DNA from: Acidimicrobiia bacterium
Lineage (GTDB): Bacteria; Actinomycetota; Acidimicrobiia; Spongiisociales; UBA5794
Length of the DNA stretch: 64,000 nt
Assembly: GCA_026985095.1 (NCBI GenBank)
Contig: JALSQW010000046.1
Coordinates: 62,001-126,000, forward strand
Reading direction: 5' to 3'
Each line of letters starts with the position of its first letter. Position 1 is the first letter of the stretch. This document shows, piece by piece, positions 36,293 through 40,351 of the stretch. The translations under genes and the position numbers were made by a program. The notes under the pieces are model-generated. The model did no database searches. It saw only the letters and a program-made list of their open reading frames with translations, and had not been told where the DNA came from.

Positions 36293-36934
36293 GTGGAGAT
36301 GAGGGACCGCAGGTCGATCCTCGAGTCGACCGACGGCGGGGACGTCTCGCTGCTGGTGCCTGCCCCGGGGCACGTGCTCGCCTTGGAGTCGCCTCCCGGT
36401 TTCGGGCTGACCCGGCTCGCATTGGAGATGATGGCGCGTGTCACGGTCGGGCCGGTCGTCTCGGTCGATGCCCGAGGATGGTTCTCACCACTGGGGGCGT
36501 GGGAGGCAGGTGTCGATCCGGAGCGTCTCGTCGTGGTGCGATGCTCGGATCCCGTTCGCTGGGCCAGGACCGTGGCGGCGCTGCTCGACGGCATCGACGT
36601 CGTCCATGCCGAGGTTCCCGAGGGCGTCGGCGCCGCGGCGTTGCGGCGTTTGGCGGCACGAGCCCGTTCCCGGGGGACGTCCCTGCTGCTCAGGCCGTTG
36701 CGGGGTCGGGTACCGACCGGGATCGCGCATCTGCGCGTGGAGGCGCTCTCGGTCCGTTGGGACGGCCTCGACCGGGGGCACGGCAGACTCCGCCGCCGGT
36801 GGATCACCCTCCGGATCTCGGGGAAGGCCGTTGGAGGGACGACGAGGACGATCGAGATCGAGGACGATGGAACGAACGCTCTGCGTGTGGTTCCCGGCCT
36901 GGCCGTTACGGCGCCCGGACGCGCCGCGGGATGA
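36293..36934 (+). CDS. imuA: ImuA' (RecA-like accessory protein of the mutasome)
   Basis: RecA-related partner of ImuB and DnaE2 in damage-induced mutagenic translesion synthesis (213 residues). It has the degenerate RecA core HVLALESPPGFGLTRLALEMM in place of a true Walker A, an RRLAARARSRGTSLLLRPL block and a C-terminal WDGLDRGHGRLRRRWITLRISG region typical of ImuA'. The nominal first ATG (36245) lies within the -10, before any possible transcript start, so the GTG at 36293 with GGAGGG upstream is chosen; ATG 36299 is close behind. imuB starts 68 bases before its end in another frame. Confidence 0.85.
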   Translation: MEMRDRRSILESTDGGDVSLLVPAPGHVLALESPPGFGLTRLALEMMARVTVGPVVSVDARGWFSPLGAWEAGVDPERLVVVRCSDPVRWARTVAALLDGIDVVHAEVPEGVGAAALRRLAARARSRGTSLLLRPLRGRVPTGIAHLRVEALSVRWDGLDRGHGRLRRRWITLRISGKAVGGTTRTIEIEDDGTNALRVVPGLAVTAPGRAAG

Positions 36935-38333
36935 ACCGTGCCAGGCCGTCGGGGACGATGAGATCGTCGTCGCCGTGAACGAACGCGCCATCGCCGCGGG
37001 CCTCCGGGCCGGGATGCATCGTCGGGAGGCCGAGGGGATCTGCCCGGCGGTGACCACCGTGCGACGAGACCCAGAGCGCGAGATGATCGTGTTCGATCCG
37101 GTCGTCGCGGCCGTCGAGGGGGTCGTCCCTCGAGTCGAGGTGACCGCCCCGGGCATGATGCTGGTGCCGTTGTCCGGGGCGGTTCGGTACTACGGCGGGG
37201 AGGCGGCGATCGTCGAGCGGATGGTCGAGGTCCTGGACGCGACCGCCGGCCCGGGGCATCGGATCGGTGTCGCTGCCGGGCCGTTCGCGGCGCGGAAGGC
37301 GGCGGAGCTGGCATCCCCTGCCGCGCCGTACCTGGTCGAGGACGACGCCGCGTTCCTGGCCGGCCTCGACGTCGCCGACCTCGGGGTGGAGGAGCTGGTC
37401 GCGACGTTCCGCTGGTTAGGGATCGGGACCTTGGGCGAGCTGGCGGAGCTTCCCCGGCCGGTGGTCGTGTCCCGTTTCGGCCGGCTGGGGTTGGAGGCGC
37501 ATCGCATCGCATCGGGGGAGGATCGTGATCCCGTCCCGCGGGCGCATCCGGCGGATCGATCCGTGGAGGAACGGTTCGACCCTCCGCTCGGCGACATGGA
37601 GCGGGCCGCGTTCGCCGGTCGGGCGTTGGCGCATCGGATGTTCGCCGGGTTCGAGGGGATCGCCCCGTTCCGGATCGTGGTCGAGATGGAGGACGTTGCC
37701 GGAGCGCTCAGGAGCCGAACGTGGCGGAGCCTGGATCCCTTCGACGAGCGGATGGTGGCGGAGCGGATCCGATGGCAGCTTCGGGCGTGGATCGAGGGAG
37801 GGGGAGCAGGGATCGGCAGGGGGATCGCCGCGGTGCGGATCCGGCCGGCCGCGTTGTCCGGTGGCGGTCGACAGCTCGGTTTGCTCGGCGGTCATCGAGG
37901 CTCGGTGGAGGCCCAACGAGCCCTCGGTGAGGTGCAGGCCATCGTCGGTCCCGATCGGGTCCTGCAGGCTCGGCCCCAAGGCGGTCGGGATCCGGGAGAG
38001 CGGGTCCGGTGGCGCAGATGGGGTGAGGCGGACACCGGAGACGAACGGGATCCGGGGGCGCCATGGCCGGGGCAGATCCCGGCTCCTTCGCCGGCGATGG
38101 TTCCTCCGCAGCCGGAGCTCGTGGAGATCGAATGGGACGGTGGCTTCCCGTTCCGGATCCGTCTGGGGAGCCGATGGGAGCCGGTCCGTTCCTGGGCGGG
38201 CCCCTGGCGGCGGATGGGACGATGGTGGGACGGGGAACCGGCATCGGACCGGTACCAGATCGTGACCTCGGCGGGAGCGTTCCTGTGCGAGGTCGTGGAC
38301 GGACGTGCCGCCCTCATCGGTATCTACGACTGA
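36867..38333 (+). CDS. imuB: ImuB, catalytically inactive Y-family polymerase-like protein
   Basis: Hub of the ImuA'-ImuB-DnaE2 mutasome, linking DnaE2 to the beta clamp (488 residues). It starts MERTLCVWFPAWPLRR; the Y-family metal ligands are lost, since APGMMLVPLSG occupies the place of the S-x-D-E motif. Palm, finger (helix-hairpin-helix WLGIGTLGELAELP near 185) and little-finger segments remain. The C-terminal third (about 345-400) is low-complexity and the end (GSRWEPVRSWAGPWRRMGRWW) matches actinobacterial ImuB. Overlap of 68 bases with imuA implies coupling; both are under the SOS promoter. Confidence 0.92.
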   Translation: MERTLCVWFPAWPLRRPDAPRDEPCQAVGDDEIVVAVNERAIAAGLRAGMHRREAEGICPAVTTVRRDPEREMIVFDPVVAAVEGVVPRVEVTAPGMMLVPLSGAVRYYGGEAAIVERMVEVLDATAGPGHRIGVAAGPFAARKAAELASPAAPYLVEDDAAFLAGLDVADLGVEELVATFRWLGIGTLGELAELPRPVVVSRFGRLGLEAHRIASGEDRDPVPRAHPADRSVEERFDPPLGDMERAAFAGRALAHRMFAGFEGIAPFRIVVEMEDVAGALRSRTWRSLDPFDERMVAERIRWQLRAWIEGGGAGIGRGIAAVRIRPAALSGGGRQLGLLGGHRGSVEAQRALGEVQAIVGPDRVLQARPQGGRDPGERVRWRRWGEADTGDERDPGAPWPGQIPAPSPAMVPPQPELVEIEWDGGFPFRIRLGSRWEPVRSWAGPWRRMGRWWDGEPASDRYQIVTSAGAFLCEVVDGRAALIGIYD

Positions 38334-38355: not shown

Positions 38356-39117
38356 TCAACGGACCGACGGCCTGCGGCGGCGGGATCGTTGCTGCTCGTA
38401 CACCTCGAGCATCCGGGCCCGGGTCAGCTCGGTCAGCTCGCCGATGTCGACGTTGCCGGCTCGACCCGTCGTCTCGATCGGGTCGAGGATCGTCACCGAA
38501 GCCGAACCCGGGTAGAACACCTTCGCTCCGGGCGGCCACACATCTTGGGTCCCCTCCAGCACCACCGGGACGATCGGGACCTGATTGTCGATGGCGATCC
38601 GGAAGGCGCCCTTCTTGAAGCGCTGCATCTCGCCGGTCCTGCTGCGGGTCCCTTCCGGGAACACGATGAGCGAATAGCCGCGTCCCAGCACCTCGCGGGC
38701 GGCGGCGTTGATCGCCTCGTGGGCGGTCATCGCCCGGGTCCGGTCGATCTTGACGATGCCGACCTTGTCCATGGCCTGACCGAACACCGGGATCTTGTAG
38801 AGCTCCTTCTTGGCGAGGAACCGCACCCGCTCGGGGATGGCCCGGAGCAGCAGTGGGATGTCGAAGTTCGACAGGTGGTTGGCGACGAACACGTAGCGCC
38901 GCTCGGGATCGATCTTCTCCGCTCCGTGGACGACGGAGTCGACGGGAGCCAGAGCGAGGAAGCGTTCCGACCACCACTGGATGACCCGTTCGATCCGTGG
39001 ATCGTCGGCGTCTCTCCAGGCCAGGGTGAGGACGAGCGCGGCCAGGGCGATGGTCACGAGGAAGAACGCGGGGACGAGCACGATCGTCTTCAGCCCGGCC
39101 CGCAGGGTGCGTCGCAT
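38356..39117 (-). CDS. plsC: 1-acyl-sn-glycerol-3-phosphate acyltransferase (PlsC family)
   Basis: Membrane acyltransferase making phosphatidic acid (253 residues). An N-terminal transmembrane helix (about 8-34) is followed by the catalytic motif NHLSNFD (H-x4-D) and FPEGTRSRTGEMQRFKKGAF plus VPIVPVVLEGT, the acceptor-site blocks. It is divergent from the YcaQ-like gene with a gap of 19 bases; TACGCT on the minus strand (39130-39125) lies seven bases before the ATG, so the mRNA is probably leaderless. Confidence 0.93.
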   Translation of the reverse strand: MRRTLRAGLKTIVLVPAFFLVTIALAALVLTLAWRDADDPRIERVIQWWSERFLALAPVDSVVHGAEKIDPERRYVFVANHLSNFDIPLLLRAIPERVRFLAKKELYKIPVFGQAMDKVGIVKIDRTRAMTAHEAINAAAREVLGRGYSLIVFPEGTRSRTGEMQRFKKGAFRIAIDNQVPIVPVVLEGTQDVWPPGAKVFYPGSASVTILDPIETTGRAGNVDIGELTELTRARMLEVYEQQRSRRRRPSVR

Positions 39118-39123
39118 GGTGGG

Positions 39124-39130
39124 TAGCGTA
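39124..39130. promoter_or_regulatory. Overlapping divergent -10 hexamers (plsC and YcaQ-like gene)
   Basis: The seven bases TAGCGTA contain TAGCGT on the plus strand (39124-39129) and TACGCT on the minus strand (39130-39125). Each is seven bases from the ATG of its own gene. The two promoters cannot be melted by two polymerases at once, so the genes should compete for transcription. Confidence 0.6.
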
Positions 39131-39136
39131 GCGACG

Positions 39137-40351
39137 ATGGCTGGACGATCCGGAGAGAGGGGACATCGGATGCCGCGGCGGATCCCGCTCGAGCGAGCAC
39201 GCCGGATCGCGCTCGGCGCGCAGGGGATCGGCGGGAGGCGTGATCGTCGGCGGGTCGATCGTCGGGCATTCCGCCGGGTGGTGGCCGCCGTCGGGCTCGT
39301 TCAGCTCGACTCGGTGAACGTGCTCGCCCGGGCCCACTACATGCCCTTCTTCTCACGTCTGGGTCCCTACGACGTCGAGGCGCTCGATCGGTGGCTCAAC
39401 GTGTCGGGGGAGATGGTCGAGTACTGGGGTCACGAGGCCTCCACCATGCCGACCGGCCTCCTCGGGTCGTTCGTGTGGCGGATGGACGAGACGCGGCCGT
39501 GGCGTCGGGTCCGTGAGGCGCTCGCGGACGATCCGGCCCTGCTCGATCGCGTGCAGGAGGCGGTGCTCGCCGACGGGCCCCTGACCGTGTCCGACCTGGC
39601 GGAGCCGGGTCACCGGTCGGGGTCGTGGTGGGGGCACGGGCCCGCCAAGACGGCATTGGAGTTCCTGTTCGCCACCGGCCGGATCACTGCCTCGCGGGAC
39701 CACCGTTTCGTTCGTCGCTACGACGCCTTTCATCGGGTGATCCCCGGGTTCGATCGTGCGTCGGCGCCGTCCAAGGAGGAGGCGTACCGTGGGCTGCTGC
39801 GGTCGGCGGTCCGTCATCATGGGATCGGGACGGCCGCCGACCTGGCGGACTACCACCGCCTCCACGGTCCGACCGCCCGCCGCATCCTCCATCGGATGGC
39901 CGGGGCAGGGGAGGTCGAGACGGTCGAGGTGCCGGGGTGGCCAGGTCCGGTCTTCCTCGATCCGGATGCTCGGGTTCCTCGAGGCTTCGATGGTGGCGTC
40001 CTGCTCAGCCCCTTCGATCCGGTCGTGTGGAACCGGCAGCGGATCGAGCGCCTGTTCGGGTTCCGGTACCGCATCGAGATCTACGTTCCCGAGTCGAAAC
40101 GGGTCCACGGGTACTACGTGTTGCCGTTCCTGCTCGACGGGAGGCTCGTCGCTCGTGTCGACCTGAAGGCGGATCGGCCCGAAGGGCGCCTCGTGGTGCG
40201 TTCGGCGTTCGTGGAGGAGGGCGAGGACGAGACGCACGTCGCCGCCGAGCTGGCGTCGGAGCTGTGGCGTCTCGCGGGCTGGCTCGGCCTCGTCGACGTG
40301 GTCGTGGCTGAGCGGGGGGATCTCGCCGCGGGGCTCCGCAGGGCGGTGTGA
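39137..40351 (+). CDS. YcaQ/AlkX-like DNA glycosylase (HTH_42, winged-helix)
   Basis: A 404-residue protein of the winged-helix HTH_42 (DUF1006) family; characterised members unhook interstrand crosslinks as DNA glycosylases. The N-terminal IALGAQGIGG...RRVVAAVGLVQLDSVNVLARAHYMPFFSR holds the QLD motif (Q56, D58), the QxD form of the catalytic motif in YcaQ-type members. YWGHEASTMP, RFVRRYDAFHRVIP, LLSPFDPVVWNRQRIERLFGF and PESKRVHGYYVLPFLL follow. Start set by TAGCGT seven bases upstream and the absence of a ribosome site. Stop is two bases from the convergent neighbour. Confidence 0.88.
   Translation: MAGRSGERGHRMPRRIPLERARRIALGAQGIGGRRDRRRVDRRAFRRVVAAVGLVQLDSVNVLARAHYMPFFSRLGPYDVEALDRWLNVSGEMVEYWGHEASTMPTGLLGSFVWRMDETRPWRRVREALADDPALLDRVQEAVLADGPLTVSDLAEPGHRSGSWWGHGPAKTALEFLFATGRITASRDHRFVRRYDAFHRVIPGFDRASAPSKEEAYRGLLRSAVRHHGIGTAADLADYHRLHGPTARRILHRMAGAGEVETVEVPGWPGPVFLDPDARVPRGFDGGVLLSPFDPVVWNRQRIERLFGFRYRIEIYVPESKRVHGYYVLPFLLDGRLVARVDLKADRPEGRLVVRSAFVEEGEDETHVAAELASELWRLAGWLGLVDVVVAERGDLAAGLRRAV

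Follow-up and report, generated by a model that had tools for sequence, protein, structure and literature searches.

A conserved symmetric -10 element between plsC and ycaQ is a probable bidirectional core promoter in a family of Acidimicrobiia

How can two divergent genes be transcribed when the -10 hexamers of opposite strands occupy almost the same bases? The question is raised by a plsC-like gene and a ycaQ-like gene in a 64,000-nucleotide stretch of DNA from an Acidimicrobiia bacterium (the whole stretch analysed is referred to as the window; its GC content is 69%). By direct reading, the plus strand at 39115-39139 is CAT GGTGGG TAGCGTA GCGACG ATG. A preliminary description of the locus had stated that TAGCGT (plus) and TACGCT (minus) overlap in TAGCGTA, each exactly 7 bases from an ATG, and the letters confirm this. 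We conclude that TAGCGTA is very probably a conserved bidirectional core promoter that would give rise to a leaderless plsC mRNA on one side and a mostly leadered ycaQ mRNA on the other. The features of the locus are as follows, in window coordinates.

38356..39117, minus strand: plsC-like 1-acylglycerol-3-phosphate acyltransferase gene, 253 aa, probably leaderless (PF01553, E 1e-34; TIGR00530 above cut-off)
39115-39117, minus strand: plsC ATG, read as CAT on the plus strand (direct reading)
39124..39130, no strand: TAGCGTA, pseudo-symmetric, common to both putative -10 hexamers (TANNNTA in 34/38 family loci, TAGCGTAG in 33/38)
39125..39130, minus strand: putative plsC -10 hexamer TACGCT, 7 nt from the plsC ATG, which is leaderless spacing
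39124..39129, plus strand: putative ycaQ-direction -10 hexamer TAGCGT, RNA start predicted at about 39136-39137
39131..39131, no strand: G, eighth base of the octamer TAGCGTAG (38/38 family loci)
39137..39139, plus strand: in-frame ATG, the ycaQ start of the preliminary description and a possible extra leaderless start in the window species (ACG in the nearest relative)
39152..39163, plus strand: Shine-Dalgarno-like GGAGAGAGGGGA, 7-18 bases before the ATG at 39170 (by eye)
39170..40351, plus strand: YcaQ/AlkX-like DNA glycosylase gene, 393 aa from the probable main start, ATG 39170 (PF06224, E 3e-63)

The minus-strand gene matches PF01553 and scores above the cut-off of TIGR00530, as is expected of a PlsC acyltransferase. 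Six further plsC matches occur in the window genome, so the lipid step named here for this copy is tentative. The plus-strand gene matches PF06224, the AlkZ-like family of Pfam, and its product contains VQLD, an instance of the Q-Phi-D motif that defines the YQL clade of YcaQ-like glycosylases in the available text of PMC9040887. These are the features that it has in common with the YcaQ-like (YQL/AlkX) glycosylases described there, and the assignment is made here from sequence alone. An IMS (Y-family polymerase-like) gene lies tail to tail with plsC at 36867-38333, so plsC sits between two repair genes. IMS-like proteins were also seen by eye to be encoded beside plsC in two other genomes, G016 and G003.

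The assignment of TACGCT to plsC draws on a signal that is found throughout the window genome (G000). In 851,882 bases of this genome with 740 called starts, the distance from the end of TANNNT to the start codon is 6 nt in 51 cases, 7 nt in 31 and 8 nt in 22, and every other offset from 0 to 39 accounts for 0-12 cases. The peak at 6-8 nt recurs with retrained calls in G000 (729 starts), in G008 (344 starts; genome GC 59%) and in G069 (269 starts). A Shine-Dalgarno-like stretch precedes 0/60 leaderless-type operon-first genes in the first 464 kb, compared with 39% of other operon-first genes, a contrast that is partly built in because the TANNNT hexamer takes up part of the Shine-Dalgarno space. 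No -35 signal was seen in the 104 leaderless promoters of G000. Scans for consensus sigma-70 promoters and terminators gave no match at the locus and are uninformative where the genome is 69% GC and its promoters are of the TANNNT type. Because of the genome-wide offset peak, the plsC RNA is predicted to start at its ATG, and the plsC mRNA is thus probably leaderless. Both hexamers are of common types in the pooled G000 and G069 samples: TACGCT ranks third among leaderless hexamers (14/147) and TAGCGT joint first among TANNNT sequences at 22-34 nt from starts (9/98).

This signal resembles that of leaderless genes in other Actinobacteria, for which PMC3160421 and PMC3898074 place TANNNT about 12 nt upstream of the start codon and describe no conserved -35; for the leaderless promoters of M. 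tuberculosis, what is available of PMC3898074 likewise reports no -35. The spacing of TANNNT and the lack of a conserved -35 are alike, whereas here the leaderless -10 would also serve a facing, mostly leadered gene as its -10. Within the collection of papers searched, none combined Acidimicrobiia, promoter and leaderless. Several other observations were made on the same signal. The base before the leaderless TANNNT was T in 0/104 cases in the G000 sample. A lesser second TANNNT peak occurs at 26-28 nt from the 740 starts (8, 12 and 10 cases) and perhaps reflects the preferred leader length of genes led by a Shine-Dalgarno site. In other families, TANNNT lies 5-9 nt before an in-frame plsC ATG in 19/20 fetched loci and is thus near universal in the order.

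On the plus strand, the start codon is less straightforward. The preliminary description had ycaQ begin at 39137 and gave a 19-bp gap between the genes. Nineteen bases do separate the ATGs at 39117 and 39137, but the gene-to-gene distance is probably 52 bp, since the start at 39137 is doubtful. A codon-usage caller that is blind to upstream motifs called the gene from 39170. In G001, a member of the same genus with 95% identity to the window genes in plsC and 88% in ycaQ (tblastn), the codon at 39137 is ACG and the next in-frame ATG, at 39170, is common to both. Together with the Shine-Dalgarno-like GGAGAGAGGGGA, these observations make 52 bp the most likely intergenic gap. Ancestrally, ycaQ is unlikely to have started at 39137, and ATG 39170 is the probable main start. 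An RNA starting at 39137 would open with AUG, however, so this codon could serve as an additional, leaderless ycaQ start in the window species. The preliminary description had also placed the -35 space of each direction inside the opposite gene; this holds for the plus direction, whose -35 space falls inside plsC, and fails for the minus direction unless ycaQ starts at 39137.

Elsewhere in the family, in-frame ycaQ start candidates mostly lie 21-42 nt past the plus hexamer, many of them after a Shine-Dalgarno-like stretch (by eye). In 20/38 loci, the distance from TAGCGT to a candidate is exactly 24 nt, a count biased upward because the candidate nearest 24 was chosen; the rules applied in our scripts for choosing starts and for recognizing a separate ycaQ hexamer were simple. 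One locus has a different layout. In G009 (C189, ~300-325), a GTG candidate for plsC and an ATG candidate for ycaQ lie 6 and 7 nt from the common TAGCGTA. With its ycaQ candidate 7 nt from TAGCGT, G009 seems to be a double-leaderless divergent pair of the kind that had been pictured for the window.

A set of 149 genomes including the window's own was searched, of which 119 had a ycaQ match and 146 a plsC match. The window's family is represented by 50 of these genomes (own included), and 38 of the 50 have a divergent plsC/ycaQ pair on one contig. The remaining 12 comprise G003 and G016, in which plsC does not adjoin ycaQ, six genomes without a ycaQ match and four with a partial or contig-end match. 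The anchor for the 38 loci was the minus hexamer, taken as A...TA with an in-frame start codon 5-9 nt away, and it was found in 38/38. The minus hexamer lies 6, 7, 8 and 9 nt from plsC in 19, 11, 7 and 1 of the loci, respectively (6-8 nt in 37/38). The octamer is TAGCGTAG in 33 loci, CATCGTAG in two, and TAAGTTAG, CAAGTTAG and CAGCGTAG in one each. Information content is 1.4-2.0 bits within the octamer, three of whose eight columns are fixed by the A...TA anchor and five of which are free. Outside the octamer it is at most 0.85 bits in 80 columns, save for 1.15 bits at a G two bases to the left. Judged from these alignments, it is by its conservation, and not by the geometry of a single site, that the element stands above chance. 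A single melted region common to both -10s, as first proposed for the window, is the best-supported reading after comparison of the 38 loci.

Such conservation might also be expected of an operator, in which case TAGCGTAG would be kept as the binding site of a repressor or activator that controls both genes. Conservation of the core GCG and of the eighth base does exceed the needs of a TANNNT promoter, and the octamer is rare in the window genome, with 6 sites. However, the octamer occupies precisely the position required of a -10, its core differs in G029 (AAG) and in family f8 (GGC) with TA...TA unchanged, and neither a second half-site nor a wider conserved footprint was found among the 38 loci. 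We therefore regard an operator as highly improbable. A genome-wide operator role for TAGCGTAG was set aside, its 6 copies in 2.93 Mb comprising the plsC/ycaQ site and five others in mixed settings. Among these, a second TAGCGTAG in G000 (C58, 18660-18724) lies between divergent called starts 30 and 24 nt away and is a candidate for another bidirectional promoter, with both arms leadered.

Loci were also fetched from three other families, as a subset of the genomes in each. In 7/7 fetched loci of family f8, the sequence between plsC and the facing gene contains TAGGCTA, so that the TA...TA frame is kept with a different core; in the single locus tested, the product of the facing gene resembles an enoyl-CoA hydratase. 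In family f7, TAGCGTA precedes ycaQ in 3/3 fetched loci, and ycaQ faces a radical-SAM/TRAM gene in the two loci looked at (UPF0004/radical-SAM/TRAM by Pfam in one). In family f6, the distance from the plsC match to ycaQ residue 16 is 93-121 bases, wider than elsewhere, and a symmetric plsC hexamer was found in 0/3 fetched loci.

The base that can separate the two directions is the T at 39124. It belongs to the plus hexamer and lies outside the minus hexamer, where it is read on the minus strand as an A just after the -10. The TANNNTA frame with this T is kept in 34/38 family loci and lost in four. An A follows ordinary leaderless hexamers in 4/104 cases in G000, 3/67 and 1/40 in the other two genomes, or 8/211 over the three, and plsC itself is one of the four A-flanked hits in G000 and the single hit in G069 (TAGGCTA). 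In other families, A follows the plsC hexamer in 0/19 readable loci (20 fetched, on contigs without a listed ycaQ match). Since A is rare after ordinary leaderless -10s, the retention of T in 34/38 loci needs another cause, of which the plus hexamer TAGCGT is the obvious one.

Three of the four losses point in the same direction. Three loci have a separate ycaQ hexamer: G007 (TATGGT, 6 nt), G024 (TAGGGT, 6 nt) and G011 (TACGCT, leadered, 22 or 31 nt). In all three, T is replaced by C. The T is thus kept in 34/35 loci without a separate ycaQ hexamer and in 0/3 with one; the probability that all three such loci would fall among the four losses is 35/73,815 if loci are independent. Full independence does not hold, since G007 and G024 belong to one genus, which leaves two independent events of decoupling. 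In a tree of 31/38 ycaQ proteins, from which G024 is absent, three separate losses are seen (G007, G011 and G025), the first two with a separate ycaQ hexamer. G025 is the exception, having CAGCGTAG, with T lost and no other ycaQ hexamer.

These data also bear on a unidirectional explanation, in which the element is the leaderless -10 of plsC alone and contains the plus hexamer only incidentally; transcription of ycaQ would then begin inside plsC or at an unrecognised promoter. G025 fits such an explanation, as does the variable distance between TAGCGT and the ycaQ start. So do G016 (TACCCTA) and G003 (TACGCTA), where plsC does not face ycaQ and the A after the plsC hexamer is nevertheless present (2/2). 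The link between the T and ycaQ is thus not strict; the A retained in these two genomes could be a relic or could reflect an unseen partner, and a search for a tRNA in G003 and G016 that might account for it found none. On the other side stand the rarity of A after leaderless hexamers in the three genomes and after plsC hexamers in other families, the retention of T according to whether ycaQ has another hexamer, and, with the bias noted above, the in-frame start candidates at exactly 24 nt. On balance, we consider a plsC-only element to be improbable. As a separate observation on G003 (C65, 2918-3870), repetitive GC-rich blocks with no obvious gene were seen by eye where a gene facing plsC was expected.

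It is therefore the bidirectional reading that we develop here. RNA polymerase would engage TAGCGTA in either orientation, since both strands of TANNNTA present TANNNT. Leftward, RNA would start at or next to the plsC ATG to give a leaderless mRNA. Rightward, it is predicted to start near 39136-39137 to give a ycaQ mRNA with a leader of about 33 nt and a Shine-Dalgarno-like site before ATG 39170; in the window species this RNA may also open with AUG at 39137. A recognisable -35 is lacking, as it is in other leaderless promoters of the genome, which suggests that the -10 does most of the work.

Among known systems, the best reading of the element is as a promoter of the kind described by Warman and colleagues. 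In symmetric -10 bidirectional promoters, as set out in the available part of PMC10268837, -11A and -7T pair reciprocally and starts are about 18 bp apart. Across the accessible portions of PMC10268837 and PMC12825309, opposite start points of bidirectional promoters are 7-25 bp apart, usually 18, and -18T is usual. At plsC/ycaQ, the opposite-strand hexamers share bases (34/38 loci), A2 of the plus hexamer lies opposite T6 of the minus hexamer and the reverse, and the start points predicted from a 6-7 nt spacing are 18-20 bp apart. The overlapping opposite -10s and the reciprocal -11A/-7T pairing are thus common to the known promoters and to this element, and both products here would likewise be mRNAs. 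The T at -18, which is usual, ancillary and not required, is absent, with G at -18 for starts at 39117 (minus) and at 39136 or 39137 (plus). The plsC/ycaQ element further differs from the promoters of Warman and colleagues in its TANNNT-type GC-rich -10 without a visible -35, in having one arm that is probably leaderless, and in start points that are predicted. Family-wide conservation and changes of partner are also seen at this element.

Whether such an arrangement regulates the two genes against each other is a further question. The preliminary description had proposed a mutually exclusive switch between plsC and ycaQ, in which polymerase competition at the common -10 is used for regulation. 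Its premise that the two directions cannot initiate simultaneously is sound, as two polymerases cannot sit there at once. In E. coli, a 2026 study by Warman and colleagues found that one direction can be repressed when the other is strongly activated, with competition only at raised activity (PMC12825309). For all five E. coli bidirectional promoters tested, however, the same study describes basal activity as too weak for the two directions to influence each other. At the locus itself no regulator site can be seen, and conservation is almost confined to the octamer in the 38 family loci; given no sign of an activator site, two ordinary, weak and independent directions are likelier than a switch. 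Partner genes also differ between families, which does not point to a dedicated functional pairing. The switch is accordingly very improbable in our estimation. It is somewhat more conceivable, and still unlikely, that the symmetry itself is selected, such that the common -10 couples the expression levels of a membrane-lipid acyltransferase and a crosslink-repair glycosylase across the family, with different genes as partners on the free side in other families. Coupling of this type would operate by competition or by limiting noise.

The element does not appear to exemplify a general rule for closely spaced divergent genes. Closely juxtaposed divergent promoters are termed a common feature of M. 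tuberculosis in the available text of PMC3898074. In G000, TANNNTA occurs in 3/23 divergent gaps of 1-80 bp, compared with a shuffle mean of 0.76 and a 95th percentile of 3. The corresponding counts are 0/11 in G008, whose plsC/ycaQ pair has TAGCGTAG and falls outside the tight-gap set because of the starts called there, and 1/13 in G069, the single case being plsC with TAGGCTA. TANNNTA as a general rule for tight divergent gaps is thus not borne out, and the plsC/ycaQ site is a particular conserved case.

Transcript maps have led to the description of bidirectional promoters as common among prokaryotes. In the present case, a comparison of sequences by itself points to the retention of such a promoter across a family, with each base assigned to a direction, and relatives that have a separate promoter for the second direction have lost the common base. 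The locus would therefore offer a natural test of whether selection holds -10 symmetry in place or the symmetry is only a by-product, the setting being GC-rich bacteria with a seeming reliance on the -10 alone. The type of element is already known, and what makes it useful is its long conservation across a family of little-studied bacteria.
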